A stretch of 64,000 nt of DNA from Nodosilinea sp. FACHB-131 (GTDB lineage Bacteria > Cyanobacteriota > Cyanobacteriia > Phormidesmidales > Phormidesmidaceae), in the NCBI RefSeq assembly GCF_014695395.1, contig NZ_JACJOF010000023.1:124001-188000 (forward strand), written 5' to 3'. The translations under genes were made by a program, and so were the position numbers. Below the pieces are notes generated by a model. That model was not told the origin of the DNA. It saw only the letters and a program-made list of their open reading frames with translations, and made no database searches. Numbering within the stretch: position 1 is the first letter of the stretch; each line of letters starts with the position of its first letter. This document shows, one piece after another, positions 4,557-22,836 of this stretch.

Positions 4557-5243
4557 ATGCCCCTACCCGCCCTACCCTACCCCTACCCCCTACCCGCCAC
4601 CGGCCTCGCGCTGCTCATTATCGACATGCAGCGCGATTTCATTGAGCCCGGTGGTTTTGGCGATGCCTTAGGCAACGATGTCAGCCTGCTGCGATCGATC
4701 ATTCCCAACGTGCAGGCATTGCAGGAGGCGTTTCGGCGCTACCATCTGCCGATTTTTCAGACTGTGGAGGGGCACCTGCCGGATCTCTCGGACTGTCCGC
4801 CGTCGAAGCGCGATCGCGGCAATGGATCGCTCAAAATCGGCGATCGCGGTCCTATGGGGCGAATTTTGATATTGGGCGAACCGGGCAACGGCATCATCCC
4901 CGAACTCGCACCCTTGCCCAACGAGGTGATCATTCCCAAACCCGGCAAGGGAGCCTTCTATGCCACTGAGCTAGAGGTCCACCTCAAAGCCCAAGGCATC
5001 ACCCACCTAATCATTACCGGCGTGACCACCGAGGTCTGCGTGCAGACCACCATGCGCGAGGCCAACGATCGCGGCTACGAATGCCTGCTGGTCGAAGACG
5101 CTACCGAGAGCTACTTGCCCGAATTTAAGCAGTCTACCCTCGAAATGGTGCGTGCCCAAGATGGCATCATCGGCTGGACGGGGCACACCGAGACGCTGCT
5201 CAACGCCCTAGCGGCTCAGTATGAAACTCCGGTAATAGCTTAG
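4557..5243 (+). CDS. Isochorismatase-family cysteine amidohydrolase 2
   Basis: A 228-residue paralog of the protein at 1752. The triad is D23 (IIDMQRDF), K128 ([16 protein letters not shown]) and C161 ([11 protein letters not shown]). Shared blocks such as [12 protein letters not shown] show clear relationship to paralog 1, yet specificity-loop regions differ ([16 protein letters not shown] versus [16 protein letters not shown]), so the two may act on successive or alternative substrates. The ATG follows directly on a C-rich tract with no ribosome-binding site. It is the last gene of the operon. N-carbamoyl or ureido-amide hydrolysis is inferred from family and context only. Confidence 0.85.
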
Positions 5244-15434: not shown

Positions 15435-15751
15435 GGGGCTTTCCTTGGGAGGTAGGGGGCCTGAGCGACGAGGGGAACAACACGGTTAGAGTTTAGCGTC
15501 TGGGCAACTTTTGTGCTGACCGCAGATTGAGCATAACAAGCTGCTCTCTACAGGGTAGGTATCAGAGCTATCAATAGCTAGGGGCATGTTAGATGTGGGC
15601 AGATTCTCTCACTGGTGAGGCAGGAATCAGCTGTGTTTTTATGAAATGTTAGTTTCTGTCGAGAGAATTTTGTTCTGCTTGTCGGTAGAGCAGGGGAGGG
15701 GGCGAAATATTACTTGGGGAGGAGGTGGGATGGGTCGAGCGCCCTTCTGTA

Positions 15752-15771
15752 GGGGCAAATGGCGTTTGCCC
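15752..15771. repeat. 20-nt hairpin repeat, copy 1
   Basis: GGGCAAA/TTTGCCC stem with a five-base loop. The identical 20 nt occurs at 26632-26651. It resembles the short GC-rich palindromes scattered in cyanobacterial intergenic DNA. Confidence 0.75.
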
Positions 15772-15819
15772 AGTGCAACGTCTGTAACGTTGAATTTGAG
15801 AATATGGCACCAGCGTCGC

Positions 15820-15961
15820 GGCGCACAACTGGGGTCAAAAGCCAGATCTACCGCTGGGGCCATTTCGCAGGCCCCAGACCCCCGTCGAGAATGGCGTTCC
15901 GCCGCCCTTCACCCCACGGAAAGGATTGGCCGATCATCGGTTTAAACCTCTGCTCTGCAAA
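15820..15961 (+). repeat. Dispersed 142-bp repeat, copy A
   Basis: Nearly identical over its length to copy C (22690-22830, reverse strand) and related to copy B (20433-20592). The unit begins GGCGCACAA, carries an 8-bp stem CTGGGGCC/GGCCCCAG, then CCGATCATCGG and GTTTAAAC, and ends in CTCTGCAA. It is followed after about 38 nt by a C-rich CCCCATCTC tract, as copy C is. No transposase and no obvious coding capacity. Confidence 0.85.
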
Positions 15962-15999
15962 TGGGCCTGTAGGTGGGGGAGACGGGCCTCTTATTGCAT

Positions 16000-16046
16000 C
16001 CCCATCTCTCTCACCTTCCCCATCTCCCTTACCCCTTTCCCCCTAC
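16000..16046 (+). repeat. C-rich low-complexity tract
   Basis: CCCCATCTCTCTCACC-type words downstream of repeat copy A; the pxcA stop codon (16043-16045, reverse strand) lies inside its CCCTAC word. Confidence 0.6.
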
Positions 16047-17425
16047 TCGTTCATGTTCTTATAGGTCGCTACCGCCGAGGGCGAGATCCGGTTCAGGTAG
16101 CGGAAGATCCAATACTTGAAGATGGTGTCGAGGATAACGGGGAAGGTGGCGATGAATAGAAAGATGAAGTCGCGGTTGGCGGGTAGGCCTAGGTGTCGCG
16201 AGAGTCCTTCTAGGATAATTTCCCAGCCGTGGGGCGAGTGGAAGCCGACGAATGTATCGGTGAAGAGAATGATGATGAAGGCTTTGGCGCTGTCGCTGAG
16301 ACCGTAGACGATCTCGTCCATAAAGGCTTTGATGTTGGCTACGTCCTGCTTGCGGTAAATCAGCAGGAGGGCAAAGGCGATTGCCGCCAGAATATCGGAA
16401 AACACGTTTTTGACGGAGCTAGCGCTGCGATCGCGGTACTCTTCCTCGACTTCGGCAGCTTTAGCGCGGACTCGCTCTTCAATATTCAGCTCAGACAGGG
16501 CTGGGACTTTGCCAATCAGCACTTCAAAGCGCAGGCGCTCTTCAAACTGCTGTAGCTCGTGGAGGGCTTCTTCCTCCATTTCGGGATTGAGAAAAACTTC
16601 AATTTCTTCGCCCCCGGCCCGCACCCGATCGACGATCGGCCCGACGATAAAGGCTTTGGTAAACTGCTGGGTCAGCAGCGGCACAATCACCAGCAGCAGC
16701 ACAAACCGAATAGCGGCAGTGGTTTTGGCTTTGGAATTGCGGAACTCCTTGACCACTTCTTGCTCGGCGTTGGGGTCGAGGTCTTGGCGAATGCGATCGA
16801 CGGTGCGGAGGATGGAGCGGGGCAGCACGTTGGCCCGGTCGGAGAGGCCCGCTGCCCGGGTGCCGTCTTTGGGAGGAGTGTTGGGCGTTGACCCGTTTGG
16901 GCCAGTCAACAGCTGCCCATCCCGCGCCTGGTTAGTCTGCGATCGCAGCACCGGGCTTGAAGGAGCAGGTTCTAAGCTGCCGCTGGCTCCGTTGGCAAGG
17001 GTGATCACCCGTTCTGGGTTGGTGTCGAGGCTGGCGTAGCGGGCCAGCACGTCGTCGATCAGCTGGAGTTTGCGAAAAAACATCGCCTGCTGGTCAATCA
17101 CGCTGACGGCCAGCTCATCGGCCCCAGCCGCAGGTAGCTGCACCTCGGTCACTCTAGGGTCAGTGACCCGCACGAGCGATCGACTGGCTCGGAACACAGC
17201 CATGCGAACCTTGATCAGGTTCAGGTATTTTTTTAGCTCGCCCTGAAAGTAGGCAATGGCGCTGTCGCCGTAGCTGCCGTAGCGAGGTGAGATCGGGTTG
17301 CCACCAAAGTACTCACGCTCGATCGCCTCAATCATTTGGGCGGCTTCGTAGGCTTGGTTAAGGGCACGCTCGGGGGTGCGAGAAACCCACCGCTGGGCGC
17401 TGCGAAAAAAGCCTGAGTTCTGCAT
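16043..17425 (-). CDS. pxcA: Proton extrusion protein PxcA (CemA family)
   Basis: A 460-residue homolog of PxcA/CotA and chloroplast CemA. A long hydrophilic N-terminal half (starting MQNSGFFRSAQRWV) precedes a first membrane segment (RFVLLLVIVPLLTQQ) and C-terminal helices (FAFALLLIYRKQDVANIKAF, FIFLFIATFPVILDTIFKYWIFRYLNRISPSAV). The PSAVATYKNMNE end is typical of the family. PxcA controls light-induced proton extrusion and helps acclimation to light and low inorganic carbon. It is followed by a C-rich tract and repeat copy A. Transcribed leftward, apparently alone. Confidence 0.93.
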   Translation of the reverse strand: MQNSGFFRSAQRWVSRTPERALNQAYEAAQMIEAIEREYFGGNPISPRYGSYGDSAIAYFQGELKKYLNLIKVRMAVFRASRSLVRVTDPRVTEVQLPAAGADELAVSVIDQQAMFFRKLQLIDDVLARYASLDTNPERVITLANGASGSLEPAPSSPVLRSQTNQARDGQLLTGPNGSTPNTPPKDGTRAAGLSDRANVLPRSILRTVDRIRQDLDPNAEQEVVKEFRNSKAKTTAAIRFVLLLVIVPLLTQQFTKAFIVGPIVDRVRAGGEEIEVFLNPEMEEEALHELQQFEERLRFEVLIGKVPALSELNIEERVRAKAAEVEEEYRDRSASSVKNVFSDILAAIAFALLLIYRKQDVANIKAFMDEIVYGLSDSAKAFIIILFTDTFVGFHSPHGWEIILEGLSRHLGLPANRDFIFLFIATFPVILDTIFKYWIFRYLNRISPSAVATYKNMNE

Positions 17426-17695
17426 TGGGTTGGGTATTGGCGCTGAGATGTCCCGATCCTACTACAGTCGGTTGAGACCAGGGGATGAGGGGCGGCAGAC
17501 AAAGCAGCATATATATTTATTGATATATACGTGTGCTGAACAACGCAAACCGCTCTTAAGGAAGTCATCGGCAACGCTTTTTGGAGCTAACTAGAAGATT
17601 TCTTGCGGCTACTAGCTAAGCAAAGCTGCAAGCAAACGTGAAATATCTACGCGCAACATTCGTGCCGCTAGCTATTCCCAAAGCGCTAGCTCGTT

Positions 17696-18706
17696 TCAAA
17701 CTGCCAAATCAGAAAAGTCACGGTCCATTGAGGCCAGACTAGTTTGCACACCACTGCGGCGGATGCCGCCCGTTTGAATATCAAAGCCAATGATTTCACC
17801 GTCCAATTCAGGCACGATACGACAGGCATAGAGCCCTTGAGTCTCTGCGACTAGCACATGGATAGCTTGGGTAGATAGAGGGAGTGGAATACGAGCGCGC
17901 TCCTGCATCCAGAGTTGGGGAATCGTTAGGCCCTGGAAGCCACCTACCCCTCCTGTAACGGGTGAGAAATCGTATTTTGCCCAGCACGAAAATACCAGTT
18001 CATAGCCACCTTCAACATGTCGATAGAGCTGTGGCACTTCCATTTCAGAGTAGCCGCCAGGTTCTAGCAGCGGCGGGAGGTATTGCCATTCGCTATCTCC
18101 GCGCACAGCTTGGGCAAAGTTGTCGTCGGCAACTTGCAATAGGGCGACTACACCACGCCTGCCCATCGGTCCATTCAATGCCTTAGCTGACGCCAGCATA
18201 AAAATTTGGCGGCTGGCTCGATCCCGAAATAAAAATGGATCTCGCCAGGCGTGAATGGTTAAATCCTCAGCAACGCCTCGGGTTTGATAAAAGAATTTTG
18301 GCTTTAGCTGGGTATCAAAGAAATGCCACTGATTCAAGAACAAATCGCTGGTGTAAGCAACGCCTATGCTTTGGGTCATGCCGTCGTCTTGACGGCAATC
18401 TCGCGATGTAAAAAACATGAGATAGCCGTTTTGGAATTTAATAATATCGCCGCTCCAGATGCAGGTATTTGCCCAGTGCTCTATGGGAGGCTTTAGCACG
18501 TCAAAATTGCTCTCGTTGCCCCAGTCAATCGCGACAAAATTTGTGGTGGTGGCGTGGCCTACGCAGGAGGCGTAGTGATGCTGCTCTGACGCTACCAGCG
18601 CCCGATCGGCATTTAGATAAAAAATATGAAAGAGTTTGGTTCCTGGGTCAAAATGATACCAAAAATCCCACACATGGCGACTGGGATGCTGCATTGGAAA
18701 GGGCAT
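17696..18706 (-). CDS. GH32/GH68-like five-bladed beta-propeller protein
   Basis: A 336-residue protein related to glycoside hydrolases of the furanosidase superfamily (GH32/43/62/68). HVWDFWYHFD near the N-terminus would supply the nucleophile-region Asp, WRDPFLFRD is the RDP-type motif and YSEMEVPQLY occupies the position of the general acid Glu. No signal peptide. AGGTGG about 5 nt before the ATG at 18706 supports this start. Likely a sucrose- or fructoside-acting enzyme, or a non-catalytic relative; the exact substrate cannot be told. Divergent from the RemA-like gene. Confidence 0.65.
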   Translation of the reverse strand: MPFPMQHPSRHVWDFWYHFDPGTKLFHIFYLNADRALVASEQHHYASCVGHATTTNFVAIDWGNESNFDVLKPPIEHWANTCIWSGDIIKFQNGYLMFFTSRDCRQDDGMTQSIGVAYTSDLFLNQWHFFDTQLKPKFFYQTRGVAEDLTIHAWRDPFLFRDRASRQIFMLASAKALNGPMGRRGVVALLQVADDNFAQAVRGDSEWQYLPPLLEPGGYSEMEVPQLYRHVEGGYELVFSCWAKYDFSPVTGGVGGFQGLTIPQLWMQERARIPLPLSTQAIHVLVAETQGLYACRIVPELDGEIIGFDIQTGGIRRSGVQTSLASMDRDFSDLAV

Positions 18707-18836
18707 TTTGCCACCTGTACAAACGTCGCGTAAACCCCTACCTAAAATACCGTAGAATCCTCTCCTATCATTGCTTCTAGCGATTCTTCAAAGTCTTTAT
18801 CATAGGGATATAGCGGTAGTAGACGTAATACGCAGT

Positions 18837-19193
18837 ATGAAGATTCAATCATCGGTATTAGTACACTTAGGTTTTGGCAAATATGTGCGATCGGATCAGG
18901 TAACATCGCTGCAGCCAGTTGAGGAGGAGCGCGGTCCAGGGCGGCGAACATTTGTTTATTTAGAAGGGCAAACTGACCCCGTTGTGGCCTCGCGGGCAGA
19001 AGATACTATTGTGCGCGATTTGGTGCAGGAACCGCGTGAGGTAATTCAGTCGCGGCAGCAGCAGGAAATTTTAACTGACCTGCTTCAAGATTTGTCGAAG
19101 GTCAACTCGACGGTGCGCCGCATCAGCCGTGACGAAGGCGGGCTGGATCTCGATCAGCTAGAGCGCCGCATTCAGCGGGTGCTGGAAGCGTAG
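18837..19193 (+). CDS. RemA/DUF370-like small protein
   Basis: A 118-residue protein. The N-terminal half (VLVHLGFGKYVRSDQVTSL) resembles RemA/DUF370, small DNA-binding regulators of biofilm and osmolyte genes in Firmicutes, and the linker PGRRTFVYLEG fits their second strand. A C-terminal part rich in Gln, Arg and Leu (DLLQDLSKVNSTVRRIS) could form a coiled coil. ATG 18837 is chosen because the homology begins there; no clear ribosome-binding site is seen. DNA-binding function is inference from weak similarity. Confidence 0.6.
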   Translation: MKIQSSVLVHLGFGKYVRSDQVTSLQPVEEERGPGRRTFVYLEGQTDPVVASRAEDTIVRDLVQEPREVIQSRQQQEILTDLLQDLSKVNSTVRRISRDEGGLDLDQLERRIQRVLEA

Positions 19194-19229
19194 GTCTAGC
19201 ATTTTTCATTTGTGAGATAGTCAAATGCT

Positions 19230-19254
19230 CCCCCTCTGTCCTCCTAAGAGGGGG
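19230..19254 (+). terminator. GC-rich hairpin between convergent genes
   Basis: CCCCCTCT/AGAGGGGG with a nine-base loop, lacking a T-run. It lies between the RemA-like gene and the convergent ADP-ribosylglycohydrolase and may block transcription from either side, or be a REP-type element. Confidence 0.45.
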
Positions 19255-19284
19255 TTACGGAGCGTAGGTTGGTATGAAGGGGCG

Positions 19285-20187
19285 TCATGGCGTAGCAGTG
19301 TGTAATCGATCGGCAAGCTCAGCAATTTGCTCGCCCATAGCGAGTCGTTTAAGCCAAGACGTCGGTATGCCCGATTCTCCGTAATAAGCTCCAGCTACTT
19401 GACCACAAATAGCGGCGGTTGTGTCGGCGTCATCACCAAGGTTGGCTGCCGCAAGAATGGCTTGTTCGTAACTTTCCGTTGTCCAAAAACACCACAGCGC
19501 TGCTTCTAAACTGTCTACGACATATCCTGTGCCCCGAATATCACCGACTCGCTTGCTTTGATATTCCCCATCGGCAATGGCTTGAATGGCGGGAGATGCA
19601 ATTGTCTCTAGGTTGTGCTCAAAGAGAATTTCGGTTTTGCTAGCCCCTGAGAGCGCTCGGAACAGCATATTCCCAAAGAGACGAGTGGCATCAATACATT
19701 CTGGTGCCCCATGGGTTGTGCGAGAGCTCTCGCCTGAGAACTGGATGGCGCGATCGCGATCGGGAAAATAAAACATTGGGATGGGGGCAAGCCTCATCAA
19801 GCAACCATTTCCGGCAGACCTTGGATGGGTAGAACCGCTGAACGGATTGCCGGAGGTTTTGTATTGAGACAGCGCTTGACTGACAGTATTACCAATATCA
19901 AAACAGTCTCCGGTGCTGCTGAGATAACCGTCGTCGCGCCAGTCACAGTAGCGATTCATTTGGTCAACGGCATCAAAGGCACCGACCTCGACTAGGCTAG
20001 TGGCCAGACATAGCGCCATTGATGTGTCGTCGGTCCACTGCCCTGGCTGGAGGTCGAATGGGCCACCGCCCACCATGTCTGTCACCGGTGCAAACGAACC
20101 ACGGGGCTGAAACTCGACCGTGGTGCCGACGGCGTCGCCTGCCGCTAGCCCCAACAGGCACCCTCGAAATCGCTGTGATGAATTCAT
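19285..20187 (-). CDS. ADP-ribosylglycohydrolase family protein (DraG-like)
   Basis: A 300-residue DraG/ARH-type hydrolase that removes ADP-ribose from arginine or related acceptors using a di-magnesium site. Metal ligands are visible: WTDDTSMAL (TDDTS 52-56) near the N-terminus and LGDDADTTAAICGQVAGAYYG near the C-terminus. I chose ATG 20187 (MNSSQRFRGCLLG) since homology starts there; the longer frame upstream runs through AT-rich and repeat DNA. No DraT or nitrogenase gene is nearby, so the target is unknown. Downstream of dispersed repeat copy B. Confidence 0.85.
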   Translation of the reverse strand: MNSSQRFRGCLLGLAAGDAVGTTVEFQPRGSFAPVTDMVGGGPFDLQPGQWTDDTSMALCLATSLVEVGAFDAVDQMNRYCDWRDDGYLSSTGDCFDIGNTVSQALSQYKTSGNPFSGSTHPRSAGNGCLMRLAPIPMFYFPDRDRAIQFSGESSRTTHGAPECIDATRLFGNMLFRALSGASKTEILFEHNLETIASPAIQAIADGEYQSKRVGDIRGTGYVVDSLEAALWCFWTTESYEQAILAAANLGDDADTTAAICGQVAGAYYGESGIPTSWLKRLAMGEQIAELADRLHTATP

Positions 20188-20575
20188 TGGAATGATTGTT
20201 TCTCCAGCCACTATTTCTTGGTCTTCTGATTCTATAAAAGACTTTTTTCTAAAAATGTTGTATTCCTTCACAAGCTTTTGGTTTGAGATTCGATCAGGAA
20301 ACTGACCCCAAAGCTTAGAGAAGTTCTTTTTCAGTGCTGCTAGCAGATTGAATAGCAAGGCTACCAATCCCTTGGTGTTCGCCCCTACAGTGAACCTGTA
20401 GCGTTGTTTGTGTAAGCTCCATGGGCGTGCGTGGCGCACAATTGGGGTCAAAATCCAGATCTGCTGCTGGGGCCATTTCGCAGGCCCCAGGCTCCCGGCT
20501 TCGTGTGTCCTCCGACCTACGAGCAGGACGTTCCGTCGTCCTGTACCTCACGGAAAGGATCGGCCGATCATCGGT
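20188..20575. other. 388-bp gap carrying repeat copy B
   Basis: Upstream of the DraG-like gene; an AT-rich stretch (20190-20300) that may hold its promoter, then dispersed repeat copy B. No gene is supported. Confidence 0.6.
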
Positions 20576-20592
20576 TTAAACTTCTGTTTTGC
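20433..20592 (+). repeat. Dispersed repeat, copy B (160-bp variant)
   Basis: Shares both ends and the CTGGGGCC/GGCCCCAG stem with copies A and C, but the middle is replaced by a longer variant segment (20485-20545). Its right end overlaps the ABC ATPase gene: the GTTTAAAC word supplies the TAA stop at 20576-20578 and the next four or five codons. Confidence 0.85.
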
Positions 20593-21292
20593 GTGGCAGA
20601 TGAATGGGTGTTCTGGTAGGGTTGTCGGCGATGATTTGACCGTCGCGAAAGGTGATGGTGCGATCGCACTGCCCGGCCACCTCCTGGTCGTGGGTCACCA
20701 GGATCACGGTCATGCCTTCGCGGTTGAGATCGGCGAAGATTTGCATCACGCTCTGGCTGGTTTGAGAGTCGAGGGCTCCGGTAGGTTCATCGGCGAGCAG
20801 GAGTTTGGGGCGGTTGACGATAGCGCGGGCGATCGCGACTCTTTGCTGCTGACCACCCGATAGCTGGCTGGGGCGGTTGTGAAGGCGATTACCGAGGCCT
20901 ACTCGTTGCAGGGCGCGGGTAGCGCGCACCCTGCGCTTGGTTTTGGGCAGGTTGGCGTAAACCATGGGCAGCATCACGTTCTCTAGGGCGGTAAGCTGGG
21001 GCAGCAGGTGAAACTGCTGAAACACAAAGCCCAGGGTGCGATTGCGTACTTCCGCCAGGGTATCGGCTGCCAGGCTGTTCACAGGGTTGCCATTGAGGTG
21101 ATAGGTGCCCTCGGTGGGGCGATCGAGGCAGCCGAGAATGGCCATCGCTGTCGATTTACCTGACCCCGACGGCCCCACAATGGCACAGTACTCTCCCGCC
21201 TCAATGGTGAGGCTGACGGGGTGTAGGGCATGGACAGCCAGTTCGCCGCTGCCGTAGGTTTTGCTGACGCGATCGAGTTCGATGAGGGCCAT
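20576..21292 (-). CDS. MacB/LolD-type ABC transporter ATPase
   Basis: A 238-residue ABC ATPase of the LolD/MacB group. Walker A is GPSGSGKST, the Q-loop lies in VFQQFHLLP, the signature is LSGGQQQR, Walker B is LLADEPTGALD and the switch is VTHD. Start ATG 21292 (MALIELDRV) fits the family; it lies 4 bp after the permease stop. The last residues (KTEV) and stop are encoded by dispersed repeat copy B, implying the original C-terminus was replaced. Works with the adjacent FtsX/MacB permease and the HlyD-type adaptor in an export or mechanotransmission machine. Confidence 0.92.
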   Translation of the reverse strand: MALIELDRVSKTYGSGELAVHALHPVSLTIEAGEYCAIVGPSGSGKSTAMAILGCLDRPTEGTYHLNGNPVNSLAADTLAEVRNRTLGFVFQQFHLLPQLTALENVMLPMVYANLPKTKRRVRATRALQRVGLGNRLHNRPSQLSGGQQQRVAIARAIVNRPKLLLADEPTGALDSQTSQSVMQIFADLNREGMTVILVTHDQEVAGQCDRTITFRDGQIIADNPTRTPIHLPRKTEV

Positions 21293-21296
21293 GGGT

Positions 21297-22526
21297 TTAG
21301 CTCCGCAGGGCAACGATAGGGTCGAGCTGAGCAGCGCGGCGGGCAGGCAAAATGCCAAAGACCAAGCCAATGCCGCCAGAGACCGAGAACGAGAGGGCGA
21401 TCGCCACCCAGCTTACCCCCGCCTCCAGCGGGCTCAGCAGCGCCACCAGCCCAACGCCACCAGCCCCAAACACCACGCCCACCAGTCCGCCAATCACCGC
21501 TAAGATCACTGCCTCAATGGTGAACTGAGCCATCAGATCCGCGCCCTTGGCCCCGATCGCCTTGCGCAGGCCAATCTCTTGAGTGCGCTCGGTGACCGAC
21601 ACCAGCATGATATTCATGATGCCAATGCCCCCTACCAGCAGCGAAATGCTGGCCGTAAACCCCAGCAGCAGCACCAAAATGTCGGACACACTGGCCGCCG
21701 TAGACAACAATTCTTGCTGGCTCTGCACGGTAAAGTCGTCGGCTCGGTTGCGCAGCTCGTGGCGCAGGCGCAGCAGGTTAGTGATCTGGTACTGGGCGGC
21801 GCTGGTATCTGCCTCGCTGCGGGCCGACACCGCGATCGTCTGCACCGTGGGGCTGGTTTGGCCCGACTCCAGCCCTGTAATCTGGTTCACCATCGCCTCA
21901 ATGGGAATGTAAATCGCCTCATCCTGGTTTTGACCAAAAGAAGACCCCCGCGGCGACGCCACCCCCACCACCGTAAAACCCACCCCGTTGATGCGAACGC
22001 GCTGATTGAGCGGGTCTTCGCTGCCAAACAAAATCTTCGCCGCCTCGCTGCCCAGCACCGCCACAGCCAGCCCCCCCTGAGCATCCACTGGGTGCAAAAA
22101 GCGCCCTTTATCCACCGTCACATTCCGCACCACCGGATAGTCGGGCGTGGTGCCAATCACGCTGGCCTGAGTCTCAGCCGCGCCCTGCGTCACCCGCAGC
22201 CGCTCACTCTTTTCCGGCGACACCGCCTGAATAGCCAAGACTTCCGCTGCGATCGCCCGCGCATCCGCCAGCGTCAGCGTATCGGCCCGCGCCACCCCCG
22301 CCTGCGGCCCCCGCTGCGCGTCCCCCGGCGTAACAAACAAAACATTCGTCCCCAACGCCTCAAACTGCTGCGTCACAAACCTCTGCGCCCCCTGCCCCAC
22401 CGCCACCATCGCAATCACCGACGCATTGCCAATCACAATACCCAGCATCGTCAAACCGCTGCGCATCCGGTTGGCGTTCAGAGTTTTGACCGCCATTGCG
22501 GCGTTTTCGACAATGTTGAGAGACAT
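21297..22526 (-). CDS. MacB/FtsX-type ABC transporter permease
   Basis: A 409-residue permease: one N-terminal membrane helix (MRSGLTMLGIVIGNASVIAMVAVG), a large periplasmic MacB_PCD domain (about 50-270) and three C-terminal helices with the FtsX motif TERTQEIGLRKAIGA. The start ATG 22526 (MSLNIVEN) follows directly on a C-rich tract without any ribosome-binding site; the longer upstream frame is a reading through repeat DNA. The gene is separated from the adaptor gene by repeat copy C. The substrate may be a peptide, lipid or macrolide-like compound; unknown. Confidence 0.9.
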   Translation of the reverse strand: MSLNIVENAAMAVKTLNANRMRSGLTMLGIVIGNASVIAMVAVGQGAQRFVTQQFEALGTNVLFVTPGDAQRGPQAGVARADTLTLADARAIAAEVLAIQAVSPEKSERLRVTQGAAETQASVIGTTPDYPVVRNVTVDKGRFLHPVDAQGGLAVAVLGSEAAKILFGSEDPLNQRVRINGVGFTVVGVASPRGSSFGQNQDEAIYIPIEAMVNQITGLESGQTSPTVQTIAVSARSEADTSAAQYQITNLLRLRHELRNRADDFTVQSQQELLSTAASVSDILVLLLGFTASISLLVGGIGIMNIMLVSVTERTQEIGLRKAIGAKGADLMAQFTIEAVILAVIGGLVGVVFGAGGVGLVALLSPLEAGVSWVAIALSFSVSGGIGLVFGILPARRAAQLDPIVALRS

Positions 22527-22663
22527 AGGGGTGGATGGGTAGGGGGTGGGCGAGTGGGTGGGTAGATGGGTGGTTGGGTAGATGGGTGGTTGGGTAGATG
22601 GGTGGACGAGTAGGTGGGTAGGAAAGGGAGATGGGGAGGATGAGGGAGATGGGGGAGGTGAGG
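22527..22663 (-). repeat. G/C-rich microsatellite-like tract
   Basis: About 135 bp of GGGTGGAT, GGGTAGAT and GGGTGGTT words on the plus strand, C-rich on the coding strand. It fills the gap between repeat copy C and the permease start. The G-rich strand has many closely spaced G-runs with G-quadruplex potential. Confidence 0.75.
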
Positions 22664-22689
22664 CCGATCGCAGTTGCTCACAAGCCCGT

Positions 22690-22830
22690 TTGCAGAACAG
22701 AGGTTTAAACCGATGATCAGCCACTCCTTTCCGTGGGGTGAAGGGCGGCGGAACGCCATTCTCGATGGGGGTCTGGGGCCTGCGAAATGGCCCCAGCAGC
22801 AGATCTGGCTTTCGACCCCAATTGTGCGCC
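22690..22830 (-). repeat. Dispersed 141-bp repeat, copy C (inverted)
   Basis: Reverse-strand copy almost identical to copy A. It starts 6 bp after the adaptor gene stop codon and is followed on its own strand by a C-rich tract, exactly as copy A. With copy B it forms an inverted pair around the permease and ATPase genes. Confidence 0.88.
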
Positions 22831-22836
22831 GCCTCC

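Follow-up and report, generated by a model that had tools for sequence, protein, structure and literature searches.

The repeat and its three copies

A stretch of 64,000 nucleotides from the cyanobacterium Nodosilinea sp. FACHB-131 (contig NZ_JACJOF010000023.1, positions 124,001 to 188,000; the whole stretch is termed the window, and coordinates are counted within it) holds a dispersed repeat in three copies, A, B and C, of which B and C lie around MacB-like permease and ATPase genes. A reading of the sequence alone (the sequence-only reading) had proposed the three copies, and they are borne out: A and C, 93% complementary, form an inverted pair of 153 nt (15818-15970 / 22680-22832), two blocks of B match each of them, and a many-copy profile scores A, B and C at 169.7, 139.9 and 174.4 bits, with no fourth place in the window at E <= 0.01. 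The copies and their parts are as follows.

15818..15974, + strand: copy A, the full conserved unit (inverted-repeat comparison, genome BLAST and profile)
15854..15877, + strand: hairpin 1 of copy A (CTGGGGCC - ATTTCGCA - GGCCCCAG)
15889..15910, + strand: hairpin 2 of copy A (GAATGGCG - TTCCGC - CGCCCTTC; the stem has one T-C mismatch)
15917..15921, + strand: CGGAA of copy A, possible pseudoknot partner of the hairpin-2 loop TTCCG at 15897-15901 (cross-genus covariation)
15940..15947, + strand: GTTTAAAC palindrome of copy A, Nodosilinea form
20432..20595, + strand: copy B, with an optional extra hairpin at 20501-20522 between hairpins 1 and 2
20467..20490, + strand: hairpin 1 of copy B
20523..20544, + strand: hairpin 2 of copy B, with pseudoknot partner ACGGAA at 20550-20555
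20576..20578, - strand: stop codon of the MacB-like ATPase gene, from the reverse strand of copy B
22672..22832, - strand: copy C, sense to the HlyD-permease-ATPase gene cluster
22773..22796, - strand: hairpin 1 of copy C
22740..22761, - strand: hairpin 2 of copy C, with pseudoknot partner at 22729-22733

The CTGGGGCC/GGCCCCAG stem and GTTTAAAC are common to A, B and C, as had been noted; the word CCGATCATCGG, also credited to all three, is found in A and B only and reads CTGATCATCGG in C. The copies do share their ends, but the true start is GCGGCGCAC (15818 in A), and in many copies a fading tail runs past the 3' end first proposed. In Nodosilinea the order of the unit is GCGGCGCACAATTGGGGTCAAAAGCCAGATCTGCYG, hairpin 1, ACCCCCNTCGA, hairpin 2 and ACCYCACGGAAAGGA; a stretch that varies comes next, followed by GATCATCGGTTTAAACC, CTGTTCTGCNAAT and the fading tail. 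Copy B owes its greater length to the optional third hairpin, placed between the other two; this insert is present in other Nodosilinea copies, and a similar sequence is found in genome G038 of genus g17 (L341, L343). That copy B supplies the stop codon of the ATPase gene was upheld when the C-termini of orthologues were compared: element-bearing proteins end in RKTEV (G000, G020 and G011; 238, 244 and 246 aa), and element-free orthologues (G009, G005 and G016; 232, 232 and 236 aa) have other ends. In G008, whose open reading frame (ORF) lies outside the protein comparison, the DNA at this point reads alike to that of the RKTEV genomes.

A folded core with covariation

The conserved core of the repeat is about 70 nt long and consists of two hairpins, the first with a loop around UUUCG, and a pseudoknot of the hairpin-2 loop with a segment just downstream. 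The GTTTAAAC palindrome, present in 18/18 copies of the own genome, was seen in none of the other-genus copies inspected. The stem of hairpin 1 takes the forms GGCC, GGGC, GGAC, GGTA and GGGG, and is thus variable yet paired; that of hairpin 2 occurs as GGACG/CGTCC and GGGCG/CGCCC, with pairing kept. The alignment used to measure covariation holds 74 model-fitted matches (73 of them distinct) out of several genera and itself leans toward structure: 93.3% of its cells are paired, compared with 82.9% after shuffling and no more than 49.2% with slid partners, and both sides have changed in 160 cells against 42.4 in shuffles. A MAFFT alignment (A4) of 32 cores cut from the model-fitted alignment gave 92.2% paired, with 66 both-side-changed cells against 17.9. 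One measure out of five, the count of further pair types, fails to rise above shuffles in both alignments. Loop and downstream partner of the pseudoknot vary together as TTCCGC/GCGGAA in G208, TCTGC/GCAGA in two G104 copies, CTGC/GCAG in G038, G348 and G332, and TTCCGT/ACGGAA in part of Nodosilinea; C-G and U-A pairs covary (65/6 and 36/9 cells), with both-side changes in two of the six pairs. Exceptions are L245, with TCCGC against GCAGA, L227 and L276 of G038, with fewer pairs, and L237 and L241 of G372, with A against C at the outer pair.

Folded one at a time, the three copies of the window show only a modest gain over shuffles (z -1.8, -2.5 and -1.6 for A, B and C; antisense A -1.4), and the shorter cores of G208 and G104 reach z -4.6 and -5.0. 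A nested helix 5' of hairpin 2 with ACGG, which appears in single folds, was rejected as it fails by eye where the downstream segment is GCAG. RNAalifold on a further MAFFT alignment (A1) gave a poor structure, with a double change in 1/16 pairs, probably because the two hairpin-2 types are shifted there by one base. Counts of G-T to A-C wobbles (34 to 1 in hairpin 1, 28 to 14 in hairpin 2) favour neither strand clearly, and those over all helices of alignment A3 (18 to 46, mostly at the outer pseudoknot pair) are not decisive; folding of the core as RNA and as single-stranded DNA are indistinguishable here. Rfam covariance models returned only weak small nucleolar RNA, long non-coding RNA or viral matches, all below the gathering score, in keeping with the earlier statement that the repeat could be matched to no named family; the Rfam scans named no IS200/IS605-type guide RNA either, no search aimed at TnpB or IscB having been made. 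The repeat is a structured, non-autonomous interspersed element without a transposase, as the sequence-only reading had it.

Two kinds of departure from the usual form were observed. In L018 (own genome, C4:164617-164774) the apex of hairpin 1 is inverted, CAGCGAAATG standing in place of CATTTCGCTG, and in L079, L117 and L133, at different loci, a larger module around GCGCAAAC stands as a replacement in hairpin 2.

Distribution across genomes

In the own genome, BLAST gave 19 matches, which reduce to 18 distinct copies because L019 lies in reverse within L018. A DNA search of 38 genomes found matches in 17, namely the own genome and 16/22 congeners, and in 0/15 genomes of other genera; 13 of the 17 hold 15-23 matches and four hold 2-10. 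An exact pattern for the 3' half found at least 107 stretches, and among the matches listed 105 have cyanobacterial names (Nodosilinea, Tildeniella, Leptolyngbya, Phormidium and other filamentous cyanobacteria); those in Flavobacterium (L078) and Prolixibacteraceae (L088) have no profile match and were taken as chance. There was no match in viral contigs with the exact pattern, nor in plasmids or phages with blastn. An exact pattern that includes ACGGAAAGGA and GGTTTAAAC was the source of the sequences L048-L154, so that conservation of those letters is overstated there; the 18 own-genome copies and L020-L047 come from BLAST and are independent of it.

A covariance model built from 20 Nodosilinea copies, with at most nine candidates scored per genome, matches 39/388 genomes of the class: 20 are congeneric, 18 belong to seven other genera of the same GTDB family, and one weak match lies outside it. 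A second model matches 5/386 genomes across the phylum, two of them within the family and three through different double hairpins. With deeper scoring (up to 150 candidates), G208 has 36 matches, G372 22 and G104 8. The weak matches outside the family in G033, G280 and G538 proved to be other double G-rich hairpins; a further weak match lies in G327. Another repeated double G-rich hairpin, TTTGGGGGG TTCTA CCCCCCAAA ... TTGGGGGCG TGGCG CCGCCCCCAA, was observed in a different cyanobacterial family (L329, L334 and L337 of G280; L330 and L333 of G538). No published description of the element family was found by title or opening lines, in a search covering few subscription journals.

The mobile form in genera g25 and g23

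In G208 (g25) and in G380 and G293 (g23) the core sits in miniature inverted-repeat transposable elements (MITEs) of about 280-310 bp with TAGGGNTGATTC-type termini. The G208 copies are alike over about 310 bp, and a 315-bp query has 46 matches in G208 and little beyond the core elsewhere, 8/12 genomes matching in all. The element ends in G208 read TAGGG(A/C)TGATTC and its complement, and TAGGGMTGATTC occurs at 44 G208 sites, some of them alone in genes, against 0 for a backward control. Both termini, with at most 3 mismatches, are present in 8/8 tested copies of g23 and 6/10 of G208, where 0.3 and 0.2 are expected, and absent in the tested copies of g17 (0/14), g28 (0/5) and g29 (0/4). Exact target duplications of 11-12 bp flank 7/17 two-ended G208 elements (L235, L238, L240 with one extra T, L257, L302, L308 and L310), among them GGAGTTAGGGG, CGGTGTAACCC, GGGTCTAAGGG, CCCCAGACCCC and CCCTAGACCCC. 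Several further elements have imperfect duplications, none was seen in L259, L298, L304 or L309, the targets are C- or G-rich, and a duplication was recognised by eye in L267 of g23. Insertion of the type that leaves terminal inverted repeats (TIRs) and duplications is observed in one genus.

By eye, the MITEs of L310 and L238 lie inside the CCCCAGACCCC that comes after another copy's hairpin 1 or a hairpin like it, and elements seem to insert into each other. Also by eye, a small ORF follows the core in G208, and L316:4604-5173 of the same genome encodes a protein like the REP-associated tyrosine transposases (RAYTs; REP, repetitive extragenic palindrome) near a chance TIR match.

Inheritance and constraint in Nodosilinea

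After matches below 60 bits, the window's three copies and duplicates had been dropped (171 rows to 161 to 149), 149 distinct copies fell into 34 groups by flanking homology, 26 of them with at least two members, one being a tandem pair in one genome. Core identity is 0.874 at the same locus in different genomes (384 pairs), and at different loci 0.824 within one genome (780 pairs) and 0.821 between genomes (9860 pairs), so paralogues are not homogenised within genomes. The 60-base flanks are 0.635-0.683 identical between orthologues against 0.549-0.578 between different loci. In G011, 16 of the 18 own-genome copies align to a locus that bears a copy; the number is 14 for G008 and, with copy B counted there, 16 for G020. 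Of the seven genomes compared at the MacB-like locus, G000 and G020 hold copy B complete, G008 and G011 keep a remnant of its right half, and G009, G005 and G016 lack it, a distribution that may be read as loss; the copy C locus is common to G000, G008, G011, G009, G020 and LEGE 06152. Since the B and C loci differ in distribution, the two copies were rejected as a composite transposon around the MacB-like genes.

The two-hairpin core changes more slowly than its surroundings. Its mismatch rates are 0.051, 0.081 and 0.094 for G008-G011, G000-G011 and G000-G020 (14, 16 and 12 locus pairs), about half those of the outer flanks in the same three pairs, which are 0.101-0.175 and lowered by alignment gaps. 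Nodosilinea copies are vertically inherited and mildly constrained. A few hairpin-2 versions recur at unrelated loci, and G-C and A-T versions are both found in 7/17 loci with at least four members, so exchange between copies is possible.

Locus A is occupied in 9/18 genomes holding the neighbouring gene, and G005 has a near-clean empty site. The sequence-only reading had held that mobility would be unlikely if copies diverged vertically at the same loci with no empty sites; this mostly applies in Nodosilinea, but for that one site in G005. Its suggestion of mobility is carried by the relatives G208, G380 and G293, through their TIRs and target duplications, and not by Nodosilinea, where copies are fixed at loci. 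Both ends with at most 3 mismatches were found in 19/132 Nodosilinea copies against 6 expected, and in 7 against 3.9 with GTAGGG masked; an excess of left ends alone persists after masking (43 against 24.6), and terminus remnants are therefore possible.

Placement and neighbouring features

With one vote per locus, 30 loci comprise 11 sense and 13 antisense placements between co-directional genes, 6 convergent and 0 divergent (gene calls are from a codon-usage script, and 4/34 locus groups lack a usable gene pair). None of the 30 element loci is a divergent gap, compared with 83/258 of the gaps without an element (150 bp or longer) in the same loci (p 2.5e-5), so divergent promoters are avoided. 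The neighbours include genes for 6-phosphogluconate dehydrogenase, CemA, heme oxygenase, homoserine dehydrogenase, DnaG, UvrC, tocopherol cyclase, CpeS and MacB. These mixed orientations, together with the unrelated neighbours among the 20/56 flanking proteins scanned, do not fit a metabolite riboswitch. Inverted copy pairs 1.3-1.5 kb apart in several genomes were considered as well; the enclosed gene is by eye an iron-type alcohol dehydrogenase, not a transposase.

Three further features adjoin the copies.

15749..15771, + strand: GTAG-tagged palindrome (REP-like), in the block missing at the G005 empty site, outside the unit
15999..16047, + strand: C-rich tract 3' of copy A, associated, outside the unit
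22524..22660, - strand: C-rich tract 3' of copy C

The block missing in G005 also includes the C-rich tract of copy A. Such a tract lies 3' in 9/33 Nodosilinea loci and 5' in 0/33; being present 3' in so few loci, it is regarded as associated with the unit and outside it. The idea that A and C together with their tracts form a composite mobile unit fails, as 24/33 loci have no 3' tract above 40% C. GTAG-tagged palindromes (GTAGGGGCAAATGGCGTTTGCCC, GTAGGGTGGGCAATGCCCACC and GTAGGGTGCATTCGCGCAGCAATGCACC) cluster with the element on either side, in the flanks of many copies, and look like REPs of a RAYT system. Elsewhere in the window, 1821-2315 and 4608-5099 are similar (82% over 33 nt, 79% over 107 nt) and are probably paralogous genes.

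Comparison with known systems

The element is short, is present in several dispersed copies and has no coding capacity as judged by size and by eye, as in a MITE. As outlined in PMC10969869, bacterial MITEs such as Correia/NEMIS, ERIC, RUP and the cyanobacterial Nezha are likewise short, non-coding, intergenic and dispersed, with stable stem-loops, and TIRs and duplications join them to the form in g25 and g23. Compared by description and not by sequence, the element differs from those outlined there in its two-hairpin and pseudoknot core with cross-genus covariation, in its 11-12-bp duplications on C- or G-rich targets, and in its Nodosilinea copies at fixed loci without clear termini. The GTAG-tagged REPs, palindromic intergenic repeats known in cyanobacteria, are portrayed in PMC3733652 as a single 20-40-bp hairpin with a GTAG foot; GTAG palindromes do adjoin many copies of the element, but the unit itself is larger, has two hairpins and lacks a GTAG foot, and so does not belong to the REPs as portrayed. 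The STAXI motif, a candidate structure in the account given by PMC2864571, has pseudoknots in two or three tandem repeats near genes for DNA-handling proteins. Such pseudoknots share with the element a pseudoknot with UUCG-type loops and an undecided RNA or DNA role; unlike them, its copies are mostly single and near unrelated genes.

Origin and present role of the element

On balance, the element probably forms a non-autonomous family of MITE type whose core is pseudoknotted and which, in Nodosilinea, is today immobile and under mild constraint; its likeliest effect there would be in cis. In g25 and g23, core-carrying TIR elements would have inserted with 11-12-bp target duplications, presumably mobilised in trans by a DDE transposase. 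The element may have spread before or early in Nodosilinea and then become immobile, losing its termini; since then the Nodosilinea copies would mostly have been inherited in unchanged positions, either at the 3' ends of genes or between genes of one direction, and mild purifying selection would act on the core. Their most likely present effect would be that of a folded 3' untranslated or intercistronic RNA altering transcript ends or stability, effects of a kind reported for ERIC and Correia elements in the account of PMC10969869.

Several observations weigh against this explanation. Within Nodosilinea there is no clear TIR pair, 0/132 copies having both ends with at most 2 mismatches, and no target duplication was seen at locus A, the one locus examined, so that the link to the mobile form is through the core only. 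MITEs with the same ends and no core exist (L293, 173 bp; also L296), and movement therefore does not require the core. At single-TIR regions of G208 and at 16 DDE_Tnp_1 loci of three genomes no autonomous partner was found, other transposase families not having been searched. The core is constrained only about twofold, and the 5' and 3' parts of the unit (0.110-0.283) change about as fast as the flanks or faster. The outer pseudoknot pair is unpaired in 26/71 lettered cells and the two 5'-most loop positions in 21/70 and 28/71, so the supported pseudoknot is one of 3-4 bp. The scanned neighbours (20/56 flanking proteins) share no pathway.

Some of these points suit a different account, possible though distinctly less probable, in which the core is an RNA family with its own function, acting in trans or serving as a general module of 3' ends; mobile elements would have captured it, and its spread would be a by-product. 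Sharing with the other genera searched is confined to the core and does not extend to the arms; the core-free MITEs, the pseudoknot covariation, the fixed loci and the slower-changing core fit as well, and TTTCG occurs in 57/74 and TTCG in 69/74 aligned matches (anywhere in the match). Copy number, however, runs from 1 to 36 among matching genomes, and five congeners by the covariance model, or 6/22 by the DNA search, have no match, so the function would not be an essential one; nor is there a credible Rfam match, a link among the scanned neighbours or a clearly favoured strand in the wobble counts. It is rather unlikely that the copies are functionless relics of an old transposon, alike through shared age, with pairing kept by template switching or module exchange. 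The recurring and alternating hairpin-2 versions, the inverted hairpin-1 apex of L018 and the merely twofold constraint would agree with it, but the pseudoknot partner segment lies outside the palindrome and its covariation is not explicable by arm correction, paralogues are hardly more alike within genomes than between them, and divergent sites number zero.

Little likelihood attaches to a single-stranded-DNA element whose hairpins are recognised by a Y1/RAYT-type transposase, as with REPs. The covariation fits folded single-stranded DNA equally, some member has GTAGGG or its complement nearby at 22/33 loci on the left and 23/33 on the right (counts without a chance control), and there is the RAYT-like protein of L316, but the mobile form has TIRs and 11-12-bp target duplications, a combination that single-strand Y1 transposition is not known to make. 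Even less probable is a bidirectional transcription terminator between genes: copies do lie at gene 3' ends in either orientation, but no T run follows the stems by eye, 15700-16100, the one stretch scanned, has 0 terminator-like sites, and copies occur in likely operons, such as C between HlyD and the permease, and two copies in a cluster read by eye as glutamine-synthetase-like, alcohol and aldehyde dehydrogenase genes.

A bolder reading is offered only tentatively: the core may represent a new class of pseudoknotted structured RNA, restricted to one cyanobacterial family, which mobile elements brought to as many as some 15-36 sites in a genome and which was then kept at Nodosilinea gene 3' ends as a common RNA module of many unrelated genes. 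The core offers a testable pseudoknot structure that no Rfam family was found to cover, and a MITE with clear insertion marks in two genera is tied to fixed, conserved core copies in another, which makes domestication traceable locus by locus.

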